12,840 bases of DNA from Gammaproteobacteria bacterium (GTDB lineage: Bacteria; Pseudomonadota; Gammaproteobacteria; Pseudomonadales; Azotimanducaceae_A). The notes below the pieces were generated by a model. It was not told where the DNA came from. It was given only the letters and a program-made list of their open reading frames with translations, and did not search any database. Below, piece by piece: positions 1 through 12,782 of this stretch. Each line of letters opens with the position of its first letter. The first letter of the stretch is position 1. The DNA is taken from positions 1 to 12,840 of the forward strand of contig DUAT01000164.1 in assembly GCA_012960755.1 (NCBI GenBank), written 5' to 3'. The position numbers and the translations under genes were made by a program.

Positions 1-677
1 CGTCGACTCATCGATGCCTTCAAATTGTTTGCTCGTAAGAATGCCAGGTAGTCTGCACTGCCGTACTGGCTCCCTTGATCACTGTGAACCAACACAGGCT
101 TTTTAGGTTGGCGGGACCAGACAGCCATCATTAATGCCTTAATCACCAAGTGGCGATCGATGTTTTTGTCCATGGACCAACCGACAAACCGGCGGGAAAA
201 TAAATCGAGAACCACAGCCAGATATAAAAAGCCCTCATGTGTTCTGATATAAGTAATGTTACTCACCCAAAATTGATTCGGGGCCGCTGGGCTAAACTCT
301 CGATCCAGTACATTGTCGGCAACTGTGGCCAACTTCCCACCCTTCATGTATCGGCGTTTATAACCAATTTGCGCCTTCAATTTGTTTCGCCGCATTATCT
401 TGGCCACACGATGTACGCTACAATTTTCGCCTGCATCCTTTAAATCTCGATGAACCCAGGGACTGCCGTACGTGGCTCCGCTGTCGATGTAGGATCGTTT
501 GATGAGCTGCAACAAACGTTGATCCTCTAGTGCACGATCAGACAATGGTTTGTTCAGCCAGGCGTAGAACCCACTACGATGCAACTTCAATACTCGGCAC
601 ATCGTCTTAATTGAAAACAAATCGCGATGGGCCAAGATGAAGGCATACTTTACTCGGATTGACCGGCAAAGTACTTT
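1..677 (-). pseudogene. IS3-family transposase OrfB (rve integrase domain), 3'-truncated by window edge and disconnected from orfA
   Basis: Reading the minus strand from about 677 gives an uninterrupted frame with IS3 OrfB landmarks. These are the HTH_21-like segment VKYAFILAHRDLFSIKTMC, then LHRSGFYAWL, SYGxxW-like TYGSPWVHRDL, RRNKLKAQIGYKRRYM and the integrase-core strand VLDREFSPAAPNQFWVSNITYI. The second catalytic Asp is present in VHSDQGSQYGS, near 70-95. The third catalytic Glu would lie beyond the left edge. The first catalytic Asp, normally in WVSDITYIRT, is Asn here (AAC, minus strand, at 258-260), which should abolish DDE chemistry. No initiation codon of its own is expected, because OrfB is made as an OrfAB fusion by -1 frameshifting and the IS30 insertion has removed that connection. 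Confidence 0.85.
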
Positions 678-679
678 GC

Positions 680-704
680 GGTGAGTTCAAGCCGTCAGTG
701 CAAC
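680..704. repeat. IS30 terminal inverted repeat, left copy
   Basis: It matches the reverse complement of 1885-1909 at about 20 of 25 positions and begins GGTGAGTTCAAG. The transposase stop codon (687-689) lies inside this repeat. The adjacent target duplication is GC at 678-679. Confidence 0.9.
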
Positions 705-1847
705 GGTATCATTCAGTGTATCTCCTGGCGTTCGATAACCCAAAGTTTTACGTGGCCGTTGGTTAAGTCGCTTGGCTACTTTGTTTAGCTCAGCCTGTGT
801 GTGAACCGCCAGGTTCGTTTTCTTTGGGAAGTACTGTCGCAGTAGTCGGTTCGTGTTTTCATTGGTACCACGCTGCCAGGGGCTTTGTGGATCGCAAAAG
901 TAAACTTTTGTTTCAGTCGCCATAGTGAATGTTTTGTGGTCTGCGAGTTCCATGCATCGATCCCAGGTCAGCGATTCACGTAAATGCCGGGGCAGTTTTT
1001 TTACATGTCTAGTCAACGCCGACACAACAGAATTTGTGTCCTTGCCAGCTACTTTGACCAGCATCGTAAAGCGAGACTGGCGCTCGACCAGTGTCGCGAT
1101 ATGTGTGTTACCCGATCCACTGATTAGATCACCTTCCCAATGACCCGGAACAGCTCTATCCTCAATCTCTGGCGGGCGATCGGCGATTGAGATAGCGTCG
1201 ATGATGCCACCCCGTGCATTGCCGCGGGTGTTGTTTGTTCTTGATTGACGAAAAACGCGTTGAGTACGTAGATGCGCCTGAAGTTCTCTTTTCAACACTC
1301 CACGGGATTGAACGAACAAACTTTTGTATATCGTCTCGTGTGACACACGCAAAGACTCGTTATCTGGGTAGGTAACTGATAGCCAACCAGAAATTTGCTC
1401 TGGTGACCACTCCTGTGAAAGTTTAGCGGCCACAATAAAGCGAAGTCTGCCATTGAGGGCTAATGCACAGAGCTTCGGTCGGCGCGCGCGTTCCCACGCT
1501 CGTGCATCTGCAGTTGCTGCTCTATATCGGGCCACACCACCATTTTTATTGACCTCACGGCTAATCGTAGAAGGTGATCGATTGAGCTCCGCCGCAATTT
1601 GACGCATTGAGTGATCACTAGCGAGACCTCGTGATATCGCCTCGCGCTCCAGGGAACTCAACGAACTTGCACGTCTTACTCGCTGAGTGGGTTGGTATCC
1701 GCCAAATAGTCGTAACACACCGAAAATCGAGGCAGGGTGTTTCTCTAGCACTCTCCCAATATCACTTAGCGACTCTCCTTCATGCCAACGTCTCCAAGCC
1801 TCTGCTTTCTCATCATCGCTCAGTCCAGGCCTTCCTAATCGAGCCAT
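687..1847 (-). CDS. IS30-family DDE transposase
   Basis: This is a 386-residue transposase that catalyses cut/join of its element. The N-terminal half has two helix-turn-helix regions: about residues 5-50 (LSDDEKAEAWRRWHEG...) and about 60-105 (LSSLEREAISRGLASDHSM...STISREV). The C-terminal half has the DDE core: first Asp in GHWEGDLISG, second Asp in LTWDRCMELADH, and Glu in SPWQRGTNENTNRLL. Length and motif order match full-length IS30 transposases. The ATG at 1847 has a good ribosome site, GGAGGT, seven bases upstream on the minus strand. One oddity is Cys where the family normally has Gly in TWDRGME, next to the second catalytic Asp, so activity is uncertain even though the frame is open. 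Confidence 0.95.
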   Translation of the reverse strand: MARLGRPGLSDDEKAEAWRRWHEGESLSDIGRVLEKHPASIFGVLRLFGGYQPTQRVRRASSLSSLEREAISRGLASDHSMRQIAAELNRSPSTISREVNKNGGVARYRAATADARAWERARRPKLCALALNGRLRFIVAAKLSQEWSPEQISGWLSVTYPDNESLRVSHETIYKSLFVQSRGVLKRELQAHLRTQRVFRQSRTNNTRGNARGGIIDAISIADRPPEIEDRAVPGHWEGDLISGSGNTHIATLVERQSRFTMLVKVAGKDTNSVVSALTRHVKKLPRHLRESLTWDRCMELADHKTFTMATETKVYFCDPQSPWQRGTNENTNRLLRQYFPKKTNLAVHTQAELNKVAKRLNQRPRKTLGYRTPGDTLNDTVALTA

Positions 1848-1884
1848 TGCTCACACCTCCGTAATCTTTCATCGAGTATTGTGT

Positions 1885-1909
1885 GTTGCATTGACCAGTT
1901 GAATTCACC
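1885..1909. repeat. IS30 terminal inverted repeat, right copy
   Basis: This is the inverted partner of 680-704. Read on the minus strand it starts GGTGAATTCAACTGGTCAAT. It is followed on the plus strand by the second copy of the GC target duplication at 1910-1911. Confidence 0.9.
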
Positions 1910-1911
1910 GC

Positions 1912-2160
1912 GGCCTTTTTTAGAATGTCGCGTTCCTCCGTGACGCGACGCAACTCACTCTTCAGCTTAGTAATCTCGGCTTGTTCATCTAGCTTCATTG
2001 TCTGTCGAGGATTTGATTCGCCATATCGCTTTAGCCAGGCATAAAGGCTGTGCGTTGTTGTACCCAATCTTTTTGCAACTTCAGCAACAGAGTAACCACG
2101 TTCAGTCACCTGTTTAACTGCTTCCTGTTTGAATTCTTCTGTGTATCGCTTGCTCTTCAT
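1912..2160 (-). pseudogene. IS3-family transposase OrfA, interrupted near its 3' end
   Basis: OrfA is the DNA-binding half of IS3 transposase. Visible features are the HTH segment (residues about 3-45: KSKRYTEEFKQEAVKQV...YSVAEVAKRLGTTTHSLYAWL) and a leucine-zipper-like coiled coil (EITKLKSELRRVTEERDIL). I take the ATG at 2160 because GAGGGG lies just upstream; an in-frame GTG two codons earlier would sit too close to that site. Homology stops at ILKKA, where the IS30 copy enters. The frame then runs on into IS30 and stops at 1813. The last codons (AKYFAGQSE and the TAA at 650-652) lie on the far side of the IS30 copy. Confidence 0.9.
1915..1921 (-). promoter_or_regulatory. IS3 programmed -1 frameshift heptamer (A-AAA-AAG)
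   Basis: On the minus strand the orfA frame reads CTA AAA AAG, the classical A6G slippery heptamer. Slipping back one base, with the IS30 copy removed, gives a frame that runs directly into the orfB sequence KVLCRSIRVKYAFI. This confirms it as the OrfAB fusion site. The IS30 insertion begins only five bases downstream, so slippage now leads nowhere useful. Confidence 0.8.
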
Positions 2161-2223
2161 AAACACCCCTCATAGAGTTAGATTTTAACGCTATTTGGTG
2201 TCTAGCAAACTCTGGGAAGTCCA

Positions 2224-2708
2224 TTCTTGGCCAGTTGGTTAATCTTCTTTTTCAGCTCACCTGCGACTTCTGCGAGCTCTAATATCTCGATCAGTTCCAA
2301 CGCTGTCACAAACATGACCTTGTAGCCCGCTTCGATGGCTTTCACAGCGATACCGGTGGTCAGGTGTGTTTTACCGACACCCGGTGGTCCAATAAACACC
2401 AGATTCTGACGTTGTTCTATAAATGTAAAATCCAATAGCGCATTGATCTGCCGTTTTGTCACGGTGGTCTGTATCCGGTAATCAAATTCTGAGAGTGCCT
2501 TGTGTAGTGGGAACCCGGCTCGACGCATATTCTGCGCTGTACGTTTGGTATCCCTGTGACTCATCTCGTGGCTAACCAATTGTTCAGCAAACTGCAGATA
2601 GGTCAGTTCATTGGCTTCTGCCTGGCTGATCAGGCGTTCCAGGGCCTCGGCGATATGGCTAAAACGTAAACTTCGATATTGTGAGGTAACTTGATCCAGG
2701 CTGCTCAT
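2224..2708 (-). pseudogene. istB: IstB-like AAA+ ATPase helper of IS21 transposition, truncated
   Basis: IstB is the ATP-dependent helper that works with the IstA transposase. The reading frame shows the IstB N-terminal region, RAGFPLHKALSEFDY, and an intact Walker A motif GPPGVGKTH near residue 108. It stops being IstB-like after KKKINQLAK, just before the expected Walker B strand (LLIIDE). The frame runs a few codons into the IS3 end and stops at 2202. About 160 of the roughly 250 residues usual for the family remain. The start ATG at 2708-2706 overlaps the istA stop codon, which indicates former translational coupling. Confidence 0.9.
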
Positions 2709-3460
2709 GTTGCCACCTCCGGTCTGTTCGTCAGACTGGCATATTGTGACAGCAGTTCCGGGGAGGCCGGTACGTGCTCACCTTCGTCCCGATCCAGGGC
2801 ATCTGGGTGTTTCTCGAACGTCTCAACATGATTTTTGAGTTGCGTTGCAGTTAATCGCGGCCGCTCGATCATGCGTGTCATCAAACGAGTATCGATATAC
2901 TCCAGCTTACCGAGAATCTGAATGACACCAGCGAGTTGATCTTTATAGATTTTCGGCGAAGTTTGTTTGATGAACTGACACAGTTGTGCGCCGGTACTTT
3001 CTCCGACTAATGCCCGGATACTTGCTTCATAATCAGCAATCCGTGCACTGACATCACGATAGTGATCGGTATTTTTGATCACGTGCCCTTTCCCTAAAAC
3101 AATGGTGTGTCAGGCAATCTCATTTTTCTGAAGCGTGTCCAGAATCAACAATTGGCCATCCTTGGCTTCAACCAGTACCGTACTTTATTGGTAGGCCATA
3201 GGGACCGAGTATTTGTTTGCCTTGAATGAGATAAGCCCGGTTTTGTCGGCCTTGCGTTGTGATTGTTCAGCGGGCATATCAACCGCAATGTACGCATCAT
3301 CTTGGCTTGCTCACGCGTGTCATAAACCAGCCGTGGCACTTCCCCAGTTGTGCCATGAGTACGGACATTGGCAACATCAGCTAACCAGGATTGCACATGT
3401 CGCTGGCCATGTAAGAGTGGGTTAAAAGAATGTTTACTGCCGCGCGGCAATATCAGAATA
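2705..3460 (-). pseudogene. istA: IstA transposase of IS21 family, C-terminal remnant with nonsense codons and a frameshift
   Basis: The upstream part, around 3300-3430 on the minus strand, reads HVQSWLADVANVRTHGTTGE, a hallmark of IstA. Near 3290-3300 the homology jumps frame to YIAVDMPAEQS...KTGLISFKANKYSVPMAYQ. It then meets a TAA (3185-3187), continues as STVLVEAKDGQLLILDTL, meets a TGA (3110-3112, probably from an Arg codon) and continues to the end at 2705. The final 125 codons are open. The catalytic core of IstA is missing. The protein would be non-functional. Confidence 0.8.
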
Positions 3461-3482: not shown

Positions 3483-3542
3483 TCGATTTTTGGTTTTGTC
3501 TTGGCAAATTGATAGATATTTTTGTTTTGCAAACCAAATCGA
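3483..3542. promoter_or_regulatory. Candidate activator-binding region upstream of the first sigma-54 promoter
   Basis: Two boxes resemble the palindrome TTTGCAAA: TTGGCAAA at 3501-3508 and an exact TTTGCAAA at 3526-3533, with centres 25 bp apart. The exact box ends about 65 bp before the -24 element. The region is bracketed by an imperfect inverted repeat (TCGATTTTTGG at 3483 and CAAACCAAATCGA at 3530-3542). Similar box pairs lie upstream of the other two sigma-54 promoters. Binding by an enhancer-binding protein is inference. Confidence 0.45.
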
Positions 3543-3596: not shown

Positions 3597-3613
3597 TTGG
3601 CACGACTGATGCA
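3597..3613 (+). promoter_or_regulatory. Sigma-54 (-24/-12) promoter of the repeat-protein gene
   Basis: The sequence TTGGCACGACTGATGCA matches the sigma-54 consensus TTGGCACG-N4-TTGCA with one mismatch in the -12 box. The GG and GC doublets (3599-3600 and 3611-3612) are at the required spacing. Transcription is predicted to start near 3624, giving a leader of about 83 nt. The -12 element lies in a small inverted repeat (TGCAG 3610-3614, CTGCA 3622-3626). Confidence 0.8.
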
Positions 3614-3628
3614 GTTTGACCCTGCATG

Positions 3629-3666
3629 CCTTCTCCTCACTTCGATAAAACAGCGAGGGGTGAAGG
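3629..3666 (+). other. Leader hairpin before the repeat-protein gene
   Basis: CCTTCTCCTCAC (3629-3640) can pair with the run ending GGGTGAAGG (3655-3666) with two mismatches and one G-U pair. It is within the predicted 5' untranslated region, about 40 nt before the start codon. There is no following T-run, so a terminator is unlikely; an mRNA-stability or translational role is possible. Confidence 0.4.
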
Positions 3667-3706
3667 GGGTTCACTAAAGTAACTTAATATTTCTTAGGAG
3701 AAAGAC

Positions 3707-5710
3707 ATGAGTAAGATGTACACACAAAAAACTGTTAGCTTACTGCTCTCAGGATTACTGGTAGCTCCGGTGTACGCTGGACCTAAGGTGTCCGGAGGGA
3801 TCAGTAATACATCTGCGATTAGTAATGCCATCAACAACGCAATTAACGCAAGTAGAGCAAATGCAGGTTCGGTAGATATCGTCGGTGAATCTATCATCAG
3901 CGAGACTGGCCTCATATTCAATGATTCAACATTAGATGAAACGACGAATATGGCGCAAGACGGCAGCGAGGTTTTCCTGGGCACCGTCTCGATGAATAAT
4001 GCAGAGCTTAGAGATGCGATTGTTAACAAGAATGAAGTGAGACAGTCAGTTAATACTGCCACTGCTGACAGTACAGCTGTAATCGGCTCAGTGTTGGTAG
4101 GAAACTCTATGTTAACGGAAGGGTATTCGGGCGAAGATCCACAGAGTTTTCCTGTGGGAGAAGAGGAAATAGTTATCCGTGGTGGTGTATTCAACCGCAA
4201 CACGGTAACAAACGCAACGAACACCGCAACCGAAGGCAGTTCTGCTGCGACTGGATCAGTATTGATAGCAGAGGGTAGTGAAATTTCCGGTGGGGGGCAT
4301 ATTTTTAATCATCAAAACAGTATTAATCTGACGGACAACTCTGCCGCGATAAGCAGTGAAGCCAACCTTGGTACTGTGCGAATGGTTAACTCCAAGGTAT
4401 CTGGGGAAGGCAGCGGAATTGCTCAATTTGGCAATAACATTGGCAGTTCGATGAATAGTGCATCAGAATCCAGTCAAGCTAACATGGCTACTTACCGGAT
4501 CAGTGACTCGGCATTGTCCTCACCTAAATGGTCAGGCAACTACGAAAACACTATTGATGGGTCAACCAACAGAGCGGTAAACGGTAGCAGCGCAAATTTG
4601 GTATCTGTAGGGATCAGCGAATCTTCCGCGGTTAACGGTCTGATTGACAATGGATTCATCACCGTTACAAGCTCAGACAATTTGTCTGAGGATTCTGCCA
4701 CGGCAAACTTGGCATCGCTTCAGGTGAAAAGTTCATTGCTCGACGCCAACCTTGAGAATGATCTTCACGCAATCTCTGATTCGGCCAACTTCGCCCTGTC
4801 CAGCACAGCTAATCTAGCCTCGATTCAGGTAAGCGGTTCAACTGTGAATGCCAGTCTTGATAACGAATTTCATGATATCATCAGTTCTGACAATTTGGCT
4901 GAATCTGGCAGTATTGCCAACTTGGCCTCAATCCAGGTGTTGGAATCAACTAGAAATGGACTTATCAGCAGTAAAGATCATGTCGTTGACTTATCCACCA
5001 ATATCGCAAAGAATGGAAGCGTATCTAACTTAGCCTCCGTACAAGTTGTTTCCTCTCACGGCGACGTACAGATAGAGAGCTATGCCAACTCCGTCAAAGA
5101 GTCTAACAACCTTGCAGAAGGTCCTCTGAGCACTGCCAATATGGCTTCTACTCAGATACTTCTCTCTGGTAGTGGTAGTGGGGCGTCTGACAACAGTGGT
5201 CATGACATCGTCACTACAGACAATACCGCCCAGGATGGAAGTACTGCGAATCTGGCATCGGTGCAAATCTCCGGTCTGGAAGGTGGTGGTGATATGTGGG
5301 TCTTGAATGATTCCAATAAAATTGAGTGGTCAAGTAACATGGCTACAGGGTCCAGTACTGTGAATGTCGGTGCCGTCCAGTTAACGGGTAGTATAGTGGA
5401 GGGCGATATCTACAACAGTCAAAACTCTGTAGTTAATTCCACCAATACGGCTATGGGCAGCAGTCTCACCAATATCGCCTCTATTCGTTTTGAGGGTGTG
5501 TTGATGAGTGGTGAAATGAGCAATAGTTTCAGTGTTGCTGAGGTCACCAATTTGGCTGAAGCAGGAAGTACTAGCAATGTTGGTTCCATCGATGTCTTCG
5601 GTTCCGACATCCACGGGAACAGCCATAACTCAGGTAGCATCACAAACACTGTCAATGTGGCAAAAAACGATAGTATCGCCAACACGGGATCGATAGTAAT
5701 TGGTCGTTAA
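3707..5710 (+). CDS. Secreted repeat protein, 667 aa, 16 units of about 38 residues; candidate beta-solenoid or matrix fibre subunit
   Basis: The family is not recognised. The ATG has a clear ribosome site (AGGAG, eight bases upstream). A Sec signal peptide covers residues 1-24 with likely cleavage at VYA-GP. Residues 25-80 hold a conserved lead module, GPKVSGGISNTSAISNAINN, shared with the protein at 10607. From residue 81 to the end the protein consists of tandem units with the pattern N-x-A-x-x-[GS]-S-x-[AS]-N-[LMV]-[AG]-[ST]-[VIL]-x-[VIL], followed by a variable stretch ending in a short hydrophobic strand. No cysteine was seen. The composition is rich in Ser, Asn and Ala, and the protein ends inside a half unit. 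No autotransporter barrel, LPXTG, PEP-CTERM or two-partner secretion domain is visible. The pattern of polar turns alternating with beta strands recalls curli- or Fap-like subunits, but the repeat differs from both. An adhesin or matrix amyloid role is inference. Confidence 0.85.
   Translation: MSKMYTQKTVSLLLSGLLVAPVYAGPKVSGGISNTSAISNAINNAINASRANAGSVDIVGESIISETGLIFNDSTLDETTNMAQDGSEVFLGTVSMNNAELRDAIVNKNEVRQSVNTATADSTAVIGSVLVGNSMLTEGYSGEDPQSFPVGEEEIVIRGGVFNRNTVTNATNTATEGSSAATGSVLIAEGSEISGGGHIFNHQNSINLTDNSAAISSEANLGTVRMVNSKVSGEGSGIAQFGNNIGSSMNSASESSQANMATYRISDSALSSPKWSGNYENTIDGSTNRAVNGSSANLVSVGISESSAVNGLIDNGFITVTSSDNLSEDSATANLASLQVKSSLLDANLENDLHAISDSANFALSSTANLASIQVSGSTVNASLDNEFHDIISSDNLAESGSIANLASIQVLESTRNGLISSKDHVVDLSTNIAKNGSVSNLASVQVVSSHGDVQIESYANSVKESNNLAEGPLSTANMASTQILLSGSGSGASDNSGHDIVTTDNTAQDGSTANLASVQISGLEGGGDMWVLNDSNKIEWSSNMATGSSTVNVGAVQLTGSIVEGDIYNSQNSVVNSTNTAMGSSLTNIASIRFEGVLMSGEMSNSFSVAEVTNLAEAGSTSNVGSIDVFGSDIHGNSHNSGSITNTVNVAKNDSIANTGSIVIGR
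3947..5707 (+). repeat. Tandem protein-level repeat array (15 full units plus a final half)
   Basis: Units start at each N-x-A motif, for example NMAQDGSE, NTATEGSSA, NLAESGSIAN, NIAKNGSVSN, NTAQDGSTAN, NLAEAGSTSN and NVAKNDSIAN. Mean unit length is about 38 codons. The second unit is longer, about 56 residues, because of an acidic insertion. Units seven to eleven are the most alike (ANLASxQV core). At DNA level the copies differ mostly at synonymous positions: the ANLAS core is written gcaaacttggcatcg, gctaatctagcctcg and gccaacttggcctca. The duplication is therefore old and kept by selection on the protein. Confidence 0.85.
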
Positions 5711-5749
5711 GTACCACGTCTCTAGATTGACAAATGAGATGTGAACAAA

Positions 5750-5788
5750 GTGATGGGCAGGGGTAGTCCCTTGTTCATCACTGTTTTT
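5750..5788 (+). terminator. Probable intrinsic terminator of the repeat-protein gene
   Basis: GTGATG (5750-5755) pairs perfectly with CATCAC (5776-5781), and a GGG/CCC pairing is possible inside. The stem is followed at once by TGTTTTT. It lies 40 bases after the stop codon of the repeat gene. The loop is long, so efficiency is uncertain. Confidence 0.5.
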
Positions 5789-5884
5789 ACCGTAAGAGAT
5801 TCTAATTTACACCAGGATATCACTCCCACTAACCCTCGACTTATTCAGGTTGTTTTCAGAATCACCCAGTCACAAAACCCCGCC

Positions 5885-6100
5885 AGTTTTTTCTTTTATT
5901 CAATCAGTATTACACCAAAAATCGATACACCAGAAGTATTAAAAGCCTACATGGCTAAATTTGATATTGGACCAGGCTGGAGTTTCCTGACCGGTAAGGA
6001 AGATGAAATTCTTGATCTAAGAAGAAAGCTGGGTCTATACATTGAAGGCATTCACTGTGATCGAACCAACCCCGACGATCATAATCTGAGTTTCCTTTAA
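5885..6100 (+). pseudogene. Fragment of an SCO1/SenC-type copper chaperone gene
   Basis: The frame reads FFYSISITPKIDTPEVLKAY, then KFDIGPGWSFLTG, LRRKLGLY and NPDDHNLSF. These match the latter half of SCO1/SenC thioredoxin-fold proteins, which deliver copper to cytochrome oxidase: the VDPxxDTPE, GPGWxFLTG and NH-containing segments. The CxxxC copper-binding region that should lie upstream is absent. The sequence before 5885 in the same frame has no SCO character and runs through the terminator hairpin. The frame stops at 6100 before the normal C-terminus. It is best read as a relic about 70 codons long, not a functional gene. Confidence 0.7.
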
Positions 6101-6274
6101 TATAGCTCCTTACAGCAGGAAAAAAGTGTGTCTTGAGGGTAATATCCACAATAGTCTTTCCATGTAAATCCGCCGCTGGTTATGCACTTGCTATTATCAC
6201 GGCACAAAAAGGGTTCCGAGTAATGCCACATCTGTCTGGAGGTTTCGGTTAATTCCAAATTAGTACAAATTCTG

Positions 6275-7828
6275 GTGATTGGTACAGGCACAATGTTGTC
6301 ATGCTTCAGTGCATGGTCGCTTTTCCAGGTCGAAGAGAGGGCCATAACAAGTGAGTTTCAAAACGATACCCAAGAACGTGCGACTTCACTGTATCGCCAG
6401 ATGGATATCAATTTCGAAGCATTGCGATCACTCGCCATAATATTTAATAGAGAAGGTGTGCCTGAGCCAGAGCTCTTCAATCTTGAAGCTAGAAAAATTA
6501 TCGTTCGCCATCAGGCAATTCAAGCACTTGAATGGATTCCCCGCATCAAGCACTCAGAACGGTCAAAGTACGAGTCCGATCGGCGTCTTCAATTTTCAGC
6601 ATTTGAGATAACAGAACAAAAAACGCAAGGACATATGTTGACGGCATCGGAAAGAGCTGAATATTTCCCAGTCTACTATATTGAACCACTGACCGGTAAC
6701 GAGACGGCGTTCGGTTTCGACCTCGCCTCTAGTGCTATCCGACTACAAGCGCTTGAGCAGTCCAGAGATTCAGGTTTACCTCAGGCAACTGCCAGTATCA
6801 CGTTGGTGCAGGAGCATTCAAATCAGCTGGGTTTTCTGGCATTCTTGCCCATCTATTCTGGATTTCCATTGACTGTTGCCACTCGCCAGGAACAACTGAA
6901 GGGATTTGTACTCGGCGTGTATCGGATTAATGATATCTTTGCTAGTTCCGCACTAAATGGCGAGTCACCGGAACTGAGCTTTCGAATTGTGGACGAGACA
7001 GATTCTAACAGTCACGACATTCTGCACATTGATCCGCCGAAATCCCCTTTCATACTTCATCCAACGATCAGCCATAGAGTCCAGCTGTCGGATATCTGGG
7101 GTCGAAAGTGGAGTCTGATAACTTCACCGTCATTAAATTACATCTCATCCAGGAGAGATGTGTTGCCATTGCTTACGTTTTTAACTGGCATCATATTTAC
7201 ACTCTTCATTACCATGTACCTGCACATTACTTCAAGACGCGCTGCGATAATTGAGAGTATCGTAATTCAAAAGACTAACGAGTTAAATGAGGCTAACGAA
7301 AAGCTGGAATCACTCTCTCGTACTGATGCACTAACCGGAATCCCTAACAGAAGGTCTCTCGATGAATTCATTGAGCTTGAATGGCTTCGTGCAATCAGAA
7401 ACAGATCCAGTCTGTCTACAATTCTTATCGATATCGATTATTTTAAGAACTACAACGATAACTACGGCCATATCAAAGGAGACGAATGCCTGCGAATAGT
7501 TGCCACCCGGCTAAACAGTCTCGTTCACCGACCAGGAGATTTAGTCGCGCGATATGGGGGTGAGGAGTTCATTCTGATTCTTTCAGATACCGAGGACGCC
7601 GATCAGGTTGCCGATCTCTGCTGTCAATCAATTGAAGATTTACAGATCCCACATGAATTTTCAGATGTGACCAGTGTCGTCACCATCAGTCTTGGTTTAT
7701 GCACAACGACACCAGAAAAAGGCACGGATCCGAGTTTGATCATAGATAATGCCGATAAAGCATTGTACAAAGCTAAATCAGCGGGACGGAACAGGGTTGA
7801 AACATATGTTAGCTCTTCTCGACCGTAA
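6275..7828 (+). CDS. Membrane diguanylate cyclase with periplasmic CHASE-like sensor domain
   Basis: It makes c-di-GMP from two GTP at the inner membrane. A short hydrophobic N-terminus (residues about 2-19) leads into a periplasmic CHASE-type domain, roughly residues 45-250, with QAIQALEWIPRI and the FPVYYIEP-GNE region typical of CHASE. A second membrane helix (about 295-318) and a coiled coil (TNELNEANEKLESLSR) precede the GGDEF domain (about 345-510). The active site is GGEEF at 428-432. A product-inhibition I-site, RPGD, lies at 419-422, exactly five residues upstream. LTGIPNRR and IDIDYFKNYNDNYGH are also present. The start is uncertain: the GTG at 6275 is the only reasonable in-frame start after a stop near 6230, the ribosome site GGAGGT near 6239 is too far away, and the first membrane helix looks short. 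The CHASE ligand is unknown. Confidence 0.9.
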   Translation: MIGTGTMLSCFSAWSLFQVEERAITSEFQNDTQERATSLYRQMDINFEALRSLAIIFNREGVPEPELFNLEARKIIVRHQAIQALEWIPRIKHSERSKYESDRRLQFSAFEITEQKTQGHMLTASERAEYFPVYYIEPLTGNETAFGFDLASSAIRLQALEQSRDSGLPQATASITLVQEHSNQLGFLAFLPIYSGFPLTVATRQEQLKGFVLGVYRINDIFASSALNGESPELSFRIVDETDSNSHDILHIDPPKSPFILHPTISHRVQLSDIWGRKWSLITSPSLNYISSRRDVLPLLTFLTGIIFTLFITMYLHITSRRAAIIESIVIQKTNELNEANEKLESLSRTDALTGIPNRRSLDEFIELEWLRAIRNRSSLSTILIDIDYFKNYNDNYGHIKGDECLRIVATRLNSLVHRPGDLVARYGGEEFILILSDTEDADQVADLCCQSIEDLQIPHEFSDVTSVVTISLGLCTTTPEKGTDPSLIIDNADKALYKAKSAGRNRVETYVSSSRP

Positions 7829-8027
7829 AACGATTTCGTTTTTGCTTGTTTGAAGCTTCTAAGTAAATAGTGGATTCGTTCGAATAGTCCTCGGGGTGTT
7901 CAAGCTTTCTCAGCGAGCCTCCAAGCGGACTCCCCGGGTAAAATCACCAATCATTACAGTGTGGACATACTTCAGTTACAGACGGTGGCTAAATTCCAGA
8001 TTCCATAAATTGGTTTGATCCTTGGTC

Positions 8028-8252
8028 ATGAAGTTCAATCAGACGCTAGAGTTATCAGTGTTAGCCGCCCTCATAGTGATGGGCGCGGCTGCGACAGTCT
8101 GGAACGGCTACTATTGGACAATTTTGGCCCTGATCTGGTTTGGGCTAGGTGTTTGGATTGGCACACGTTCCGTGAAAATGTTGATGTGTGTCACTACATT
8201 CAAACGACACCGTGTTCCTAAACAAAGCGATGATTCTCTGCAAAGTTCATGA
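8028..8252 (+). CDS. Possible small membrane protein, 74 aa
   Basis: The family is not recognised. The product would have two hydrophobic segments, about residues 8-22 (ELSVLAALIVMGAAATVW region) and 26-45 (YYWTILALIWFGLGVWIG). A basic C-terminal tail (KRHRVPKQ) follows, which fits a small inner-membrane hairpin protein with a cytoplasmic tail. The start could be the ATG at 8028 or a TTG two codons earlier. No good ribosome site precedes either, which is the main reason for doubt. It stands alone between the cyclase gene and the TPR gene, on the same strand. Confidence 0.4.
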   Translation: MKFNQTLELSVLAALIVMGAAATVWNGYYWTILALIWFGLGVWIGTRSVKMLMCVTTFKRHRVPKQSDDSLQSS

Positions 8253-8696
8253 TTTTTAATGGGAAATCCGGCGTGGTTACTTCTTGCACCCAGCAAACTT
8301 CCGCACCTGTACTTGGTCCAAACGAAGCTGAGCAATTACCTGTAGACATCGTTATCGATATACGCGGTAGTACGTTTTTGGTTTAACAATTAATTGCTAT
8401 TAACGGGTGTAAGATCAGGTATCACAGCGATCCCCGATAGCGAACATCACCACCAAGCGTTTCTCACTTTGCAAAAGCATTTTCTGATTTGCAACAAAAA
8501 GTTATACCAAACAATCCAAATGTCGTGAACCTTTCGGTTAACTCGAATATCAATCGTATGCGCTAACTGACTAGCCCTCCAGGTGACACGATTGCCCGCT
8601 ATTGCTGTTCTGGTGGCGTTCACGCCAACGGTCACCGGGCGAACTTACCACCAAATTACATGCATAACTCAAGCGGTCATGGCTTCTTTGAGAGGC
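8253..8696. other. Long intergenic region with candidate regulatory sites
   Basis: No convincing gene is seen here. It holds two TTTGCAA boxes: TTTGCAAAA at 8468-8476 and ATTTGCAAC at 8487-8495, with centres 20 bp apart and about 205-225 bp before the -24 element at 8697. It also holds a compact perfect palindrome TGGCGT-TC-ACGCCA (8614-8627), set inside GGTGAC (8582-8587) and GTCACC (8631-8636). This arrangement suits an upstream activator region for the sigma-54 promoter that follows, but that is inference. Confidence 0.4.
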
Positions 8697-8712
8697 TGGC
8701 ACGACACATGCT
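8697..8712 (+). promoter_or_regulatory. Sigma-54 (-24/-12) promoter of the TPR-TonB gene
   Basis: TGGCACGACACATGCT has GG at 8698-8699 and GC at 8710-8711 at the exact sigma-54 spacing, and is almost the same sequence as the promoter at 3597. The predicted transcription start is near 8723, giving a leader of about 140 nt. Confidence 0.8.
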
Positions 8713-8731
8713 TAGTAGTAAAGCATGTGTC
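8703..8731 (+). repeat. Perfect 11-bp inverted repeat overlapping the -12 promoter element
   Basis: GACACATGCTT (8703-8713) and AAGCATGTGTC (8721-8731) are perfectly complementary, with a 7-base spacer. The left arm contains the -12 GC doublet and the right arm covers the predicted transcription start. It could be an operator able to block sigma-54 polymerase. There is no T-run, so it is not a standard terminator. Confidence 0.6.
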
Positions 8732-8824
8732 TCAGAATTAGTAACAGAATCGCTACAGTTGTTCGCGAATTACCATCGACAAGAAAAGTTGGGGGTGTAG
8801 TGAAGGCTACATAACATAGCAATT

Positions 8825-8849
8825 CGGGTGATTGTTGTTCCATCACCCG
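8825..8849 (+). other. Leader hairpin adjoining the ribosome site of the TPR-TonB gene
   Basis: CGGGTGAT (8825-8832) pairs perfectly with ATCACCCG (8842-8849) around a 9-base loop. The stem ends one base before TAAGGAG, the ribosome site of the gene starting at 8864. It could influence translation or mRNA stability. Confidence 0.5.
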
Positions 8850-8863
8850 TTAAGGAGACGAAA

Positions 8864-10402
8864 ATGAACCGGCGAAACATGAAACTATCGATATTGGTTG
8901 TCGCATTCACCGTCCTTTGTGCAAGTCAGTCGTTCGCTATGGACAATGACAGAATCGCTCCACATGACAATCAGTTACAGAAAAAAATTGAACCCACAAT
9001 GAAGGATTTTCAGCACTCGTTGGACGCACAGGATTACCCGTCAGCTTTAAGCAACGATCGTAAGATAATCACGCTCGTTGACAACGGAAAACAATCAAAA
9101 GGTCATGCACAAGCGTTGCATAATCTTGCAAAAGTGCAGCCGGTAGTGGGCTTGCATGTGAAGTCCGCCGAGAGCTACAAAAGCAACATTGATCTTGTTG
9201 AAAGGCAGCACGGAATATTCGCTCCTGATCTACTACCATTGCTCACAGAGTTGAGTTCATTATATTACAACCGTGCAGACTATGAACTCGCCATGAACAC
9301 CTTACGCAGAGCACAGCACATCACCCATAGAAACGAAGGTGTCTATTCACTGGAACAGCTCACGTTGATCGATTCGCTGACCATGCTAGAAATTAAAACC
9401 GGTCGAATAGAAAATGCTGACACGCAGCAGAGATTTTATTATTCCATCAATTTGAAAAATTACGGTAAAGATGATCAACGAATTCTACCGGCCATCAACA
9501 GAATGGCAGAGTGGTTCAGCGCTTCAGGCCAGCTTGACAAGTCTTTGAGGTTCTATAAGAAAGCGCTGGACGTGATTAATAAACTTGAACTAGGTGAAGC
9601 TGAAAAACTACGGCCACTACGCGGTCTTTCAACGGTGAAATATCTCAAAGGTTTCTGTTGCATTGATGAACATCTCAGAGAGGCGTTGCGGATCATCATG
9701 ACGCATCCAGGTTCTGATCATGTTGACAAACTCGACGCGCTTGTACATCTAGCTGATATGCATATGATCAACAAGAAAAGACGTATCGCCAATCAATACT
9801 ACCAGGATGCCTGGAATAGGCTACGCTCCGGTAATCCAGCCACTCAAGCACTCTTTAACTCACCTGAGCTACTGGGGGTCAGCGGGGTCGAAGACGTACA
9901 CAAGGCCTACTACCTAACTATCGAAGGTCCAATTCTAATGGACAAGAAAGTGTACCTGTCCAAAAACAGCGGACAGTCATCACTTCAGGTGAATATTGGT
10001 CAAAAACGAAAACCCGTGCACACGCCAATCATCGGAGAACCGCTCTCTCTTTGCCATTCTCAAGTACTGGAACTAGCCCGCACCAATAGCACCGAAGACC
10101 TAGGACAGTACTTTGTCGACCTTAGCTTTACCGTTACCAGTGGGGGAAGCGTTAGAAATGTATCTCTGCTCGATAGTAATGCACCCAGTCGACTACAGCG
10201 TTACGTCACCAACACACTTCGCCAAACCCGATACCGGCCGACTTTCTGGCAAGGCGAGGCCATTGATTCAAAAAATTTGAAGATACGGCAGACGTTTTCA
10301 GGTGACAGAGCCACTCAGGAGTCGCGAACTCCGTTTAGTCGCACAAACGCTGATGGAAAGCGCGCGACTACACTGGGCTGTCAGTTACTCGCCTCTCGTT
10401 AG
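8864..10402 (+). CDS. Exported TPR protein with TonB-like C-terminal domain, 512 aa
   Basis: The ATG at 8864 is chosen because AAGGAG precedes it by six bases and a signal peptide starts there (NRRNMKLSILVVAFTVLC, likely cleavage SFA-MD after residue 25); an upstream in-frame GTG at 8828 lies inside the leader hairpin. Residues about 45-340 are helical and TPR-like (YPSALSNDRKIITLVDNG; YYNRADYELAMNTLRRAQ; ASGQLDKSLRFYKKALDVI). Residues about 405-480 resemble a TonB C-terminal fold: YFVDLSFTVTSGGSVRNVSL, a Pro-containing loop, then LRQTRYRPTFWQGEAID. In true TonB this domain contacts outer-membrane receptors. There is no N-terminal TonB anchor or proline-rich linker, so the domain may instead mediate protein binding in the periplasm. 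It has its own sigma-54 promoter. The last 33 residues are unlike any domain I know. Confidence 0.8.
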   Translation: MNRRNMKLSILVVAFTVLCASQSFAMDNDRIAPHDNQLQKKIEPTMKDFQHSLDAQDYPSALSNDRKIITLVDNGKQSKGHAQALHNLAKVQPVVGLHVKSAESYKSNIDLVERQHGIFAPDLLPLLTELSSLYYNRADYELAMNTLRRAQHITHRNEGVYSLEQLTLIDSLTMLEIKTGRIENADTQQRFYYSINLKNYGKDDQRILPAINRMAEWFSASGQLDKSLRFYKKALDVINKLELGEAEKLRPLRGLSTVKYLKGFCCIDEHLREALRIIMTHPGSDHVDKLDALVHLADMHMINKKRRIANQYYQDAWNRLRSGNPATQALFNSPELLGVSGVEDVHKAYYLTIEGPILMDKKVYLSKNSGQSSLQVNIGQKRKPVHTPIIGEPLSLCHSQVLELARTNSTEDLGQYFVDLSFTVTSGGSVRNVSLLDSNAPSRLQRYVTNTLRQTRYRPTFWQGEAIDSKNLKIRQTFSGDRATQESRTPFSRTNADGKRATTLGCQLLASR

Positions 10403-10446
10403 AGACTCATCCTTGGTTCGAGTTGCAGTTGATTGGCAGCACTTCC

Positions 10447-10480
10447 GTTGCAAATTAAAAATCAATTCGCAATTTGCAAA
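10447..10480. promoter_or_regulatory. Paired TTTGCAAA-like boxes upstream of the third sigma-54 promoter
   Basis: GTTGCAAATT (10447-10456) and AATTTGCAAA (10471-10480) form a perfect 9-bp inverted repeat (TTGCAAATT / AATTTGCAA) with centres 26 bp apart. The downstream box lies about 67 bp before the -24 element at 10547. That is nearly the same distance as for the exact box upstream of the promoter at 3597. The stem is AT-rich with no T-run, so I prefer a protein-binding site over a terminator. Confidence 0.5.
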
Positions 10481-10546
10481 CCTGATCCCACCCCGTCCTG
10501 TCTCAACAAAGAAGCTATCCCATTGTATTTATTGTATATATCTACA

Positions 10547-10562
10547 TGGCATGATTGATGCT
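10547..10562 (+). promoter_or_regulatory. Sigma-54 (-24/-12) promoter of the paralogue/Sel1-SPOR operon
   Basis: TGGCATGATTGATGCT has GG at 10548-10549 and GC at 10560-10561 at the exact spacing. It differs from the promoter at 3597 by two C-to-T changes and the last base. Transcription is predicted to begin near 10573, giving a short leader of about 34 nt. Confidence 0.7.
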
Positions 10563-10606: not shown

Positions 10607-11629
10607 ATGACAGAACCATTCGTGAGTAAATCCGTCGGCGTCCTGTTTATAAGCTTGTTCACGCCAGCCGTACTGTTTGCGGGACCCAAGGTGTCCGGAG
10701 CTATCAGTAACACAGACGCAATGAGTCACGCGATCAGTATTGCGGTTAACATCCGCCGTGTGAATGCCGGGTCAACAAGGTTCACAAATAAATCGATAAC
10801 TCCCGAACCCGGGAGTCTTGTTGTTAGTGCACCGATGGATGCAACCGAGGCGCTTGAAGCCCGAAACGGTCGTGCTTCATACATTACTCCAAAGAGCAAT
10901 TCAGACCGGAGTGACAACCCTGTTGACACTAATACAATGATCCATTCACAAACCGCTGCTAAAAAAGCCAGCAATGCAACCTTGACCACTGAAGTGGCTG
11001 CGCAGTCAGGTGTTCCAGAGAAAGACAAAGGAAAAGAATCGCAAGGTTCCCCTGAAGCAGAAGACAACGTCATCATCCAGAACGACGATAGAAACGTCAA
11101 AACGACTACCAGTACTTTGACGGATATTTCGGTTTCCAGTGGGTCGGATATTTTTGAAAACCGCATTGACGGGGGTACTGGCATTGACTTCATTTGGCAG
11201 GTAACTTCCACGCTGAGCGACAGTACTTTCAACGAAGCCATTGATATCACCACTTATAAAAATCTGACTGGCAGTGATTACATTACCAACATGGCTTCCA
11301 GTCACGAGGTGCGCAATATTGAACATGGTGCGATTGTCGGTAACAAAACACATGGAGATTGGCATTCGTCCAGCATCGCAGTGAAACGTGACGAGACCTT
11401 GACTAACATTAACTTAAAACGGATGATGTTCAGTGACTCTTCAATCTTTAATGAATCTATTGATGACATTATTTTTGATGAGGACACCGGGTACGGCCTT
11501 GAGGATAGTCACGGCGCCTTCAATCCACCAGATACTCAGATGCTGAATTCCATTACTCGCAATAGTGAAAATCAAAGTGGCATCTATTTTTCTGGCGGTA
11601 CGACAAACACTATCGATGCGGCAGAATAG
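10607..11629 (+). CDS. Secreted protein, 340 aa, paralogous at its N-terminus to the 667-aa repeat protein
   Basis: The family is not recognised. A signal peptide is predicted with cleavage after residue 25 (LFA-GP). The mature protein begins GPKVSGAISNTDAMSHAIS, matching GPKVSGGISNTSAISNAIN of the 667-aa protein, and continues RxNAGS in both. Residues about 85-170 are a charged, low-complexity linker (KDKGKESQGSPEAEDN). The C-terminal half has weak repeats around GSDIFENRIDGG, SDSTFNEAIDI and SDSSIFNESIDDI, reminiscent of the strand part of the larger protein (YENTIDGSTN). No cysteine was seen. The ribosome site before the ATG is weak; a GTG at 10622 is an alternative start. It forms an operon with the Sel1-SPOR gene 12 bases downstream. 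A minor subunit, nucleator or cap for the same surface structure is a guess. Confidence 0.75.
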   Translation: MTEPFVSKSVGVLFISLFTPAVLFAGPKVSGAISNTDAMSHAISIAVNIRRVNAGSTRFTNKSITPEPGSLVVSAPMDATEALEARNGRASYITPKSNSDRSDNPVDTNTMIHSQTAAKKASNATLTTEVAAQSGVPEKDKGKESQGSPEAEDNVIIQNDDRNVKTTTSTLTDISVSSGSDIFENRIDGGTGIDFIWQVTSTLSDSTFNEAIDITTYKNLTGSDYITNMASSHEVRNIEHGAIVGNKTHGDWHSSSIAVKRDETLTNINLKRMMFSDSSIFNESIDDIIFDEDTGYGLEDSHGAFNPPDTQMLNSITRNSENQSGIYFSGGTTNTIDAAE

Positions 11630-11641
11630 AGGTCTCGTCAC

Positions 11642-12586
11642 ATGAATCTTGAAAAGCAATCAGCTTTAACCAACGAATGCTCAAAATTATCTATCGCCCT
11701 TCTTTTCTTCGTTGGATCTCTTTCCTTTCCAGTGAATGCTGATTTTGGAGACGGAATTAATGCATTCCGCAATAGTGAGTACGAAACGGCAATACGGGAG
11801 TGGCAACCCTATGCAGAACAGAATGATCCACGCGCGCTTTACAATCTTGGCCAGATTTACCGCAGGGGATTGGGTGTTGAACCCGATTTAGCCGTCGCCG
11901 AACAATACTATCGACGCGCAGCAGAGTTGGGTCATCCTCATGCGCAGGGTAACCTGGGATCTATTTATTATTCTCGGTCACCGGTTGATATGGACCAGGT
12001 GCTCTACTATTGGCAAAAAGCAGCCGAAGGTGGTGACATCCAGTCCCAGTATTTGTTGGGTATACAATACTCCCAGGGTAAACACATAAAGCAAGATCAT
12101 TTGTTCGCTTACGCCTGGGTGAAACTGGCAATTGATTCAGGGTTGGAGAATGCAAAATATGCCCTGGATGTCCTCTCCCTGTCTCTGAGTGAAAACGATA
12201 TCAAACGAGGTGATGAGCTTGCCAGGCAGTTTTCCGAAGAAACGAGAACTGGTATGCAGCGACAAAGTCCAGAACGGGTGGCGCACTCTGGCGCACCAGA
12301 CTCTCGCTCCACACCTGATCCACTAACTGATGTATTCCGCATTCAGATTGCTTCGTTAAGTAGTATGAAACAAGCCCGATTCTATCTAGAACGGGAATCT
12401 AAGCAAATGCTTGGTGTGTTGGAAGACGCCACCTACTACATTGCAGAAGCAGATCTGGGGGAACGTGGTATCTTTTATAGACTGCAACTTGGCAATTTTA
12501 CTAAGCGCGAAAAAGCGTCTTCTTTTTGCGACCAGCTGAAGAAAACAGGCCTCGACTGCTACGTCGTTTCGTCATTGGGCATCTGA
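11642..12586 (+). CDS. Exported Sel1-repeat protein with C-terminal SPOR domain, 314 aa
   Basis: A signal peptide ends near residue 33 (VNA-DF). Residues about 62-175 carry three to four Sel1-like repeats: ALYNLGQIYRRGLGVEPDLA, AEQYYRRAAELGHPHAQGNL and QYLLGIQYSQGKHIKQD are clear. A linker rich in Pro and Ser leads to a SPOR domain, residues about 232-310, beginning FRIQIASLSSMKQARFYL and ending FYRLQLGNFTKREKASSFCD and CYVV. SPOR domains bind peptidoglycan glycan strands lacking stem peptides, and Sel1 repeats bind proteins, so the protein probably tethers partners to the cell wall in the periplasm. The ATG has AGAGGT upstream, overlapping the stop of the preceding gene by a base, so the two genes are co-transcribed from the promoter at 10547. 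Confidence 0.9.
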   Translation: MNLEKQSALTNECSKLSIALLFFVGSLSFPVNADFGDGINAFRNSEYETAIREWQPYAEQNDPRALYNLGQIYRRGLGVEPDLAVAEQYYRRAAELGHPHAQGNLGSIYYSRSPVDMDQVLYYWQKAAEGGDIQSQYLLGIQYSQGKHIKQDHLFAYAWVKLAIDSGLENAKYALDVLSLSLSENDIKRGDELARQFSEETRTGMQRQSPERVAHSGAPDSRSTPDPLTDVFRIQIASLSSMKQARFYLERESKQMLGVLEDATYYIAEADLGERGIFYRLQLGNFTKREKASSFCDQLKKTGLDCYVVSSLGI

Positions 12587-12599
12587 TCAACCCCTTCAC

Positions 12600-12782
12600 A
12601 TAGAGTTACAAGACGCTCACAAACTCGATACCCCGGTGCTCATAAATGGCAAGCGCAGCGCGCCTGTAGGCACCGACAACGCTGGCAACGGTTATGTCGA
12701 CCTTAGCCAGTTGATCCGGGGCATTGCGCTTGAACGGGTCGAGGTAGTGAAGGACGGTGCGTCTCCCCCTGTGTCAGAGTAG
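12600..12782 (+). pseudogene. Fragment of a TonB-dependent receptor plug domain
   Basis: The plus-strand frame reads TPVLINGKRSAPVGTDNAGN, then GYVDLSQL and LERVEVVKDGASP, followed by a stop at 12780-12782. This corresponds to the plug of TonB-dependent outer-membrane receptors (VLINGKR ... YVDLNxIPxxAIERVEVLKDGASAxYG). The signal peptide, TonB box and barrel are all missing, and the frame ends where IYGSDA would follow. It is a relic of about 55 codons lying 30 bases after the Sel1-SPOR gene. Confidence 0.75.

Follow-up and report, generated by a model that had tools for sequence, protein, structure and literature searches.

Three sigma-54-type promoters in a gammaproteobacterial contig suggest a small regulon with a candidate LuxO/SypG-type activator

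Promoters and genes of the window

The DNA analysed here, called the window throughout, is the whole 12,840-nucleotide (nt) stretch of contig DUAT01000164.1 from a Gammaproteobacteria bacterium. It carries three sigma-54-type promoters, A, B and C, each lying 5′ of a gene whose product is predicted to be exported. The promoter motifs and the genes are read directly from the sequence, and "exported" refers throughout to a prediction from N-termini inspected by eye. Promoter A (TGGCACGACTGATGCA, 3598-3613, predicted start 3624) stands before gene 1 (3707-5710), which encodes a 667-residue repeat protein rich in Ser, Asn, Gly and Ala, with a repeat of about 36 residues. Promoter B (TGGCACGACACATGCT, 8697-8712, predicted start 8723) precedes gene 2 (8864-10402), encoding a 512-residue TPR protein with a TonB_C match under the Pfam cut-off, hereafter the TPR-TonB protein. 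Promoter C (TGGCATGATTGATGCT, 10547-10562, predicted start 10573) precedes gene 3 (10607-11629, 340 residues), which is followed after 12 nt by gene 4 (11642-12586), encoding a Sel1-repeat/SPOR protein. All of these features are on the forward strand, and the predicted starts lie 83 nt (A), 141 nt (B) and 34 nt (C) from the ATG. Genes 3 and 4 are probably co-transcribed. Unit 1 is probably monocistronic; a terminator-like hairpin with a T run and a 15-pair stem (5749-5782, forward strand) follows gene 1, and its stem is the longest among the seven terminator-like sites of the window (shuffle mean 8.0).

A reading of this DNA made from its letters alone, the sequence-only reading, had proposed three near-identical sigma-54 promoters before genes for exported proteins. 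The same 16-mers are found at these positions, each before a gene with a signal-peptide-like start, and the transcription starts proposed for them (3624, 8723 and 10573) coincide with those recomputed here.

All three sites have GG at -24, GC at -12 and 10 base pairs (bp) between them, in the context TGGCAYG-N4-NTGCW. The pattern TGGCA-N7-TGC is found at these three promoters and nowhere else in the window, both strands counted, and the looser TGGC-N8-TGC adds a single site (406, reverse strand). Sites were scored over 12 positions against TGGCACG-N4-TTGCW, the sigma-54 consensus, with GG and GC obligatory and 200 shuffles as the control. Promoters A and B score 11/12, a level found on average 0.075 times per shuffle (largest 1). 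Promoter C scores 10/12, and the window holds four sites at 10/12 or better (shuffle mean 0.745, largest 4), the fourth being at 5588 on the reverse strand, within gene 1. The pattern TGGCAYG-N4-ATGCW, which is somewhat flattering as it was fitted to the three promoters themselves, has eight matches in three other genomes of about 10.6 megabases (Mb) together (reversed-pattern control 4); at that density, about 1 per 1.3 Mb, some 0.01 would be expected in the window, and three are found. Promoters A and C overlap open reading frames (ORFs) of 83 and 102 residues, respectively, both judged spurious. A single copy of rpoN is present in each of the three other genomes searched.

The -12 element reads ATGC at all three promoters, and the sequence-only reading took this form as unusual and as a mark of one regulon. 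That ground does not hold. In the same three genomes the ATGC form has 8 matches and the TTGC form 7 (controls 4 and 3). Three of the ATGC matches lie inside ORFs of at least 90 residues and five outside; three of those five precede one related exported-protein gene and have GCAC/GTGC dyads upstream that look NtrC-like by eye. Of the seven TTGC matches, three fall outside ORFs, and pilin-like genes follow two of these. A published consensus, tGGcacg ... tTGCt, gives the first t of the -12 element in lower case, that is, as weak (PMC4641369). ATGC is thus no regulon signature, as it is as frequent as TTGC, is used at NtrC-looking promoters and differs from that consensus at a weak position.

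Promoter B carries a perfect 11-bp inverted repeat, GACACATGCTT-N7-AAGCATGTGTC (8703-8731), across the -12 element and the start, which could be an operator. ATGCAG-N7-CTGCAT at promoter A (3609-3627) is in the same register by eye, and promoter C lacks such a repeat. RNA folds of the three leaders gave z-scores of -1.93, -1.93 and +0.98, none of them significant.

A paired palindrome upstream of each promoter

Upstream of every promoter lies one copy of the palindromic 8-mer TTTGCAAA (3526, 8468 and 10473), and the window has no others. A partner with one mismatch stands 20-26 bp from each copy, and the resulting pairs, listed here without strand, are candidate enhancers. Pair A (3501-3538) consists of TTGGCAAA at 3501 and TTTGCAAA at 3526, with 64 nt between the second and promoter A; within the pair, 3521-3538 is a near-perfect palindrome. 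Pair B (8461-8495) has TTTGCAAA at 8468, 221 nt before promoter B, and TTTGCAAC at 8488. Pair C (10447-10480) has GTTGCAAA at 10447 and TTTGCAAA at 10473, 66 nt before promoter C, and forms the perfect dyad TTGCAAATT-N14-AATTTGCAA.

These pairs are a direct observation, and several controls bear on how often they arise by chance. With one mismatch allowed and a distance of 8-30 bp, the window has three TTTGCAAA pairs, one per promoter and none elsewhere; 300 shuffled windows average 0.17 (largest 3). Single copies with at most one mismatch number 13, with a mean of 9.9 in shuffled windows. TTTGCAAA is the sole 8-mer common to the three 250-bp upstream regions, and likewise to the three 300-bp regions. 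Some common 8-mer appears in 3.0% (250 bp) and 5.1% (300 bp) of 2000 shuffles, and in 114 and 187, respectively, of 5000 non-overlapping random triples from the window. A common palindromic 8-mer appears in none of the 2000 shuffles, in none of 3000 further shuffles, and in 0 (250 bp) and 3 (300 bp) of the 5000 random triples. Finally, no ungapped stretch of the window matches that of pair C better than 3501-3535 at promoter A, where 21 of 35 letters are identical (reached at 1 of 12,735 positions; next best 20).

Given the common promoter type and the shared upstream palindrome pairs, joint activation of the three genes by a single activator is probable. The sequence-only reading had reached the idea of a single activator by way of the ATGC element; that ground falls away, and the paired palindrome, absent from that reading, takes its place, so the single-activator proposal is better supported than its author could know, on other grounds. 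Among bacterial papers, a literature search on TTTGCAAA as a binding site gave chiefly work on mycobacterial PrpR.

Sigma-54-like sequences can occur by chance and have no function. Most sigma-54 binding sites of E. coli lie within genes, according to PMC4591121, so a match by itself is no proof of a promoter. For the three sites of the window, such an explanation is very improbable: the fitted pattern has three matches where about 0.01 would be expected, all three stand before genes, and each comes with a paired palindrome.

A sigma-54 regulon that has already been described would be another explanation, and two were considered. The NtrC motif is the dyad TGCACCA-N-TGGTGCA. TGCACCA is absent from the window and TGGTGCA occurs at 6804 only, so neither half-site lies upstream of promoters A-C. 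For PEP-CTERM genes, PMC1569441 describes an activator motif, a spacer averaging 62.8 nt, a sigma-54 motif and about 71 nt to the start codon; the 17-nt PrsR motif 1 ends in TTTACA. The window resembles this PrsK-PrsR regulon in having several exported-protein genes, an activator motif, a spacer of about 63 nt (64 at A and 66 at C), a sigma-54 motif and a long leader, and NtrC-looking promoters elsewhere use the ATGC form too. Unlike PrsR motif 1, TTTGCAAA does not end in TTTACA. TTTACA occurs in the window at 1000, 5806, 7196, 7639 and 11838, and no TTTACA, TGTAAA, TGCACCA or TGGTGCA lies upstream of promoters A-C. By eye, the C-termini of the four proteins lack a PEP-CTERM segment, and no PEP-CTERM model is among the NCBIfam matches. 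A PrsR-type or NtrC regulon is scarcely credible here, and with the characteristic motifs missing upstream of the promoters, TTTGCAAA as a PrsR or NtrC site was rejected.

Fits to the LuxO and SypG boxes in the window

PMC10162802 gives the LuxO enhancer box, or upstream activating sequence (UAS), as TTGCAWWWTGCAA and the SypG UAS as TTCTCANNNTGMDWN, and reports that SypG sites overlap LuxO sites. The V. cholerae LuxO sites from chromatin immunoprecipitation sequencing include ttgcaaatcgcga (PMC10328515). The LuxO box was scored over 10 fixed positions, with at least 9/10 as our own threshold. The best fit upstream of promoter C scores 9/10 (TCGCAATTTGCAA, 10467-10479, 67 nt before the promoter), that upstream of B 8/10 (8462-8474) and that upstream of A 7/10. 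The only fit to the SypG motif in the window, 8461-8474, is also upstream of promoter B.

A matrix built from 19 boxes of other genomes, chosen by consensus likeness and including one identical to the box at 10467, puts 10467 first among 12,828 window positions, at 19.5 bits, with the next at 11.3. The stretches at 8462 (B), 10448 (C) and 8482 (B) rank fourth, fifth and tenth; those of A rank just 18 and 20. Removing the identical training box hardly changes these ranks. A matrix from five published V. cholerae LuxO sites, a training set not of our choosing, ranks the six upstream stretches 1, 2, 4, 6, 9 and 11. Its top eleven thus hold stretches of all three promoters, those of A at ranks 9 and 11. 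With the 19-box matrix, 1.7% of random segments do as well as C. Sequence comparison therefore favours the LuxO reading strongly at C, moderately at B and weakly at A.

This gradient suits an arrangement of separate activators, with a LuxO-type protein acting at C, and perhaps B, only, and TTTGCAAA at A being a chance or decayed copy. Box strength declines from C to B to A, and the spacing at B (221 nt) is unlike that at A and C (64 and 66 nt). Set against this are the occurrence of exactly one TTTGCAAA pair per promoter and none elsewhere in the window, and the position of 3501-3535 as the best window match to pair C (21/35, next best 20). We regard separate activators as rather improbable.

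LuxO-like activators and boxes in other genomes

Comparison genomes were taken from near G001, the Gammaproteobacteria metagenome-assembled genome A5-S04_187, whose TPR-TonB gene, at 52% identity, was the closest one found across the genome collection. A search of 393 genomes for a single TTTGCAAA lying 50-80 nt before a sigma-54-like site gave 31 places, spread over 28 genomes, against 6 for the reversed control. Thirty of these places have a locus, of which 26 are inside ORFs of at least 110 residues and four outside. A paired TTGCAA followed by a sigma-54-like site gave 11 matches in 10 genomes (reversed control 0). Among the 10 distinct places, two (L105 and L106) are outside ORFs of at least 110 residues, three (L108, L110 and L111) lie under ORFs judged spurious alone, and the other five sit in ORFs. 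Those first five places all carry TTGCA-N3-TGCAA, complete or with one mismatch, which is the LuxO box form.

The fullest case is locus L143 of genome G029, an exopolysaccharide locus with a SLBB/Poly_export/OmpA protein and WecG-type, family 2 and group 1 glycosyltransferases. It has six sigma-54-like sites (at least 10/12), five of them with a LuxO-type box 20-180 nt upstream; one boxed site brought the locus in, which makes the independent count 4/5. L143 also carries a 13-mer identical to TCGCAATTTGCAA, 72 nt before a sigma-54-like site (67 nt in the window) and in the opposite orientation to the promoter. A second copy has the orientation seen in the window and differs in its last letter. 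The activator encoded in this locus scores 629 bits against the NCBIfam LuxO model, whose curated cut-off of 800 it does not reach, with the next model at 387.5; among solved structures, LuxO (5ep0) comes closest to it. The gene for this activator (337-1870 of L143) is itself preceded by a sigma-54-like site and a LuxO-type box (9/10), and the protein may thus control its own expression.

Genome G354 encodes a second LuxO-like activator (655 bits, likewise under the cut-off) in a locus with polysaccharide genes recognised by eye. A partial LuxO-like activator in G225 is 59% identical to that of G029. Locus L146 of G225 has an Alg14-like gene, and all three of its sigma-54-like sites are preceded by boxes; two of the sites have these boxes in common, and one is the site through which the locus was selected. 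In L144 (G181), a box stands at one of three sigma-54-like sites, a site not selected for its box. Boxes also occur at 1/1 sites in L145, 1/2 in L149, 1/1 in L155 and 1/1 in L156, in each case at the site that brought the locus in. Nine comparison loci (L044, L046, L047, L092, L094, L097, L100, L002 and L003) have a box at none of their 10 sigma-54-like sites.

A near-identical sigma-54-like site, TGGCACAGCGCTTGCG or TGGCACAGGCCTTGCG, recurs in G181, G299 and G372 (L144, L155 and L156), each time 66 nt downstream of a LuxO-type box, and seems to be a conserved promoter of the same type. In G299 (L075), this site precedes a protein with a signal-peptide-like start.

The shared palindrome would also fit one activator of another enhancer-binding family that recognises TTTGCAAA, with the LuxO likeness at C coincidental. 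What all three promoters have in common is the half-site, not the full LuxO box, and the other genomes encode several activators of other kinds. In G001-G003, none of the 10 strong activator places examined, out of 15 and including all six of G003, scored in the LuxO branch. However, 10467 ranks first under every training set tried, and the identical 13-mer lies in the locus of a LuxO-like activator. We consider an activator of another family unlikely.

A sigma-54 activator of about 961 residues, with an N-terminal receiver domain by eye, is encoded in G003 (L092, 5872-8757) and G001 (L093, 2177-5065). On the same contig of G003, a sigma-54-like site of the ATGC type precedes an exported protein.

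A proposed regulon under a LuxO/SypG-type activator

Taken together, these comparisons lead us to propose that the three sigma-54 promoters form one small regulon with predicted exported products under a LuxO/SypG-type activator, and we put the probability of this reading at about 0.58. One enhancer-binding protein would bind the paired TTTGCAAA-type half-sites 64 to 221 nt upstream of each promoter, reach the sigma-54 holoenzyme through DNA looping and open the promoter by hydrolysing ATP. It would most likely be a response regulator of the LuxO/SypG type, given that the best window site is a fit to the LuxO box. The proposed products are all predicted to be exported and comprise two proteins related at their N-termini (one of them built of repeats), the TPR-TonB-like protein and the Sel1-SPOR protein; they would most likely be components of the envelope or the biofilm matrix and would be switched on together with exopolysaccharide. 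The gene contents fit an envelope or matrix role without proving it. Binding, activator identity, co-expression and matrix role are what we infer, with the identity of the activator drawn from the other genomes.

Several points weigh against this proposal. Promoter C taken singly is no better than chance-level sites, and the weight of the evidence therefore lies in the set of three and its placement. TTTGCAAA was found post hoc and not predicted in advance, and the 150-bp upstream regions share no 8-mer, since the copy at promoter B is 221 nt away. The box is weak at A (7/10, equalled by 25% of random segments), and at B it is moderate and 222 nt from the promoter (equalled by 6.6%). The paired TTGCAA pattern itself favours LuxO-like boxes; its reversed form has another composition, which makes it an imperfect control, and eight of the 10 distinct places overlap an ORF of at least 110 residues, three such ORFs being judged spurious. 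In the G354 locus, just one of seven sigma-54-like sites has a box, namely the one that brought the locus in. No sigma-54 promoter of this type was found at the TPR-TonB gene in L001, L044, L045 or L046, and in the loci read, no protein with the gene 1 repeat or GPKVSG motifs was near that gene; the functional link among the three units is accordingly one drawn from the window. The evidence on activators and rpoN comes from the compared genomes, whose closeness to the window's own organism is uncertain.

The proposed regulon resembles the LuxO regulon of Vibrio in its sigma-54-type promoters with TTGCA/TGCAA dyads upstream, one of which (10467-10479) fits nine of 10 box positions, and the box-bearing genomes G029, G354 and, in part, G225 encode LuxO-like activators. 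It differs in that the Vibrio UAS TTGCAWWWTGCAA precedes qrr genes, whereas the targets in the window are genes for predicted exported proteins, and in that the boxes at A and B are partial. Neither Qrr nor any other Rfam family matched the window at E values up to 0.5. SypG controls a polysaccharide locus in Vibrio fischeri. The window is like the syp regulon in that SypG is a sigma-54 activator with sites overlapping those of LuxO and 8461-8474 fits its motif, and unlike it in that this fit is found at one of three promoters and no polysaccharide genes were recognised in the window. NtrC-family proteins, VpsR among them, control the biofilm matrix in Vibrio, and VpsR is a distant match to the LuxO-like activators of the other genomes.

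A wider proposal is more tentative, and we rate it somewhat short of an even chance: a branch of LuxO-like sigma-54 activators outside Vibrio may use TTGCA-N3-TGCAA boxes, and not Qrr small RNAs, to activate directly both exopolysaccharide loci and dispersed genes whose products are exported matrix proteins, and the window may be such a regulon with orphan repeat proteins as products. If this is true, the LuxO family, known for quorum sensing in Vibrio via small RNAs, would elsewhere run exopolysaccharide and matrix genes directly, and a few short DNA motifs would connect functionally uncharacterised proteins with a single activator and with the biofilm matrix. The box and a sigma-54 site about 50-110 nt downstream make a motif pair by which genomes with LuxO-like genes could be scanned for regulon members. 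Literature searches on LuxO outside Vibrio in polysaccharide control gave work on Vibrio only and nothing on a "LuxO homolog", a result too limited for the branch to be called unpublished.

Gene products and flanking features

The N-terminus of gene 3 resembles that of gene 1, with AGPKVSGxISNT in common and 32% identity over a 170-residue alignment. Gene 1 had no relatives in the protein database at an E value of 0.001 or less among 7991 candidates scored, its N-terminal region none at 10 or less among 413 candidates, and none appeared in plasmids, in 369 genomes of the class of G001 or in 195 relatives of that genome; for such searches, an empty answer obtained without a known positive is not informative. 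Gene 3 had no match in 195 genomes. A single-sequence AF2 model of gene 1 is nearly all-beta at very low confidence (pLDDT 41), that of gene 3 has pLDDT 31, and both are too poor for structure search. Apart from gene 2 itself, the protein database contains 25 relatives of it, among them TPR-TonB proteins of 55-59% identity. Its alignment was matched in 54 of 97 relatives of G001, many perhaps via the TPR part alone, and its relatives at L044-L047, L049 and L050 stand among genes that are unrelated by eye.

A search of viral contigs gave no match. A short frame at 12612-12779 looks by eye like a TonB-dependent receptor plug and had no Pfam match. The left flank (3-3440, reverse strand) is a pile of insertion-sequence (IS) genes that ends shortly before promoter A. 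Its frames match HTH_Tnp_1, HTH_21/rve, an HTH_38/rve transposase and an IstB-like ATPase fragment; we take the first two to be IS3-like, the third IS30-like and the fourth IS21-like. The pieces after the IstB-like fragment resemble its partner by eye, but neither Pfam nor plasmids gave a match to them. A CHASE-GGDEF gene (6275-7828), which likely encodes a diguanylate cyclase and has no TGGCA-N7-TGC site, lies between units 1 and 2.

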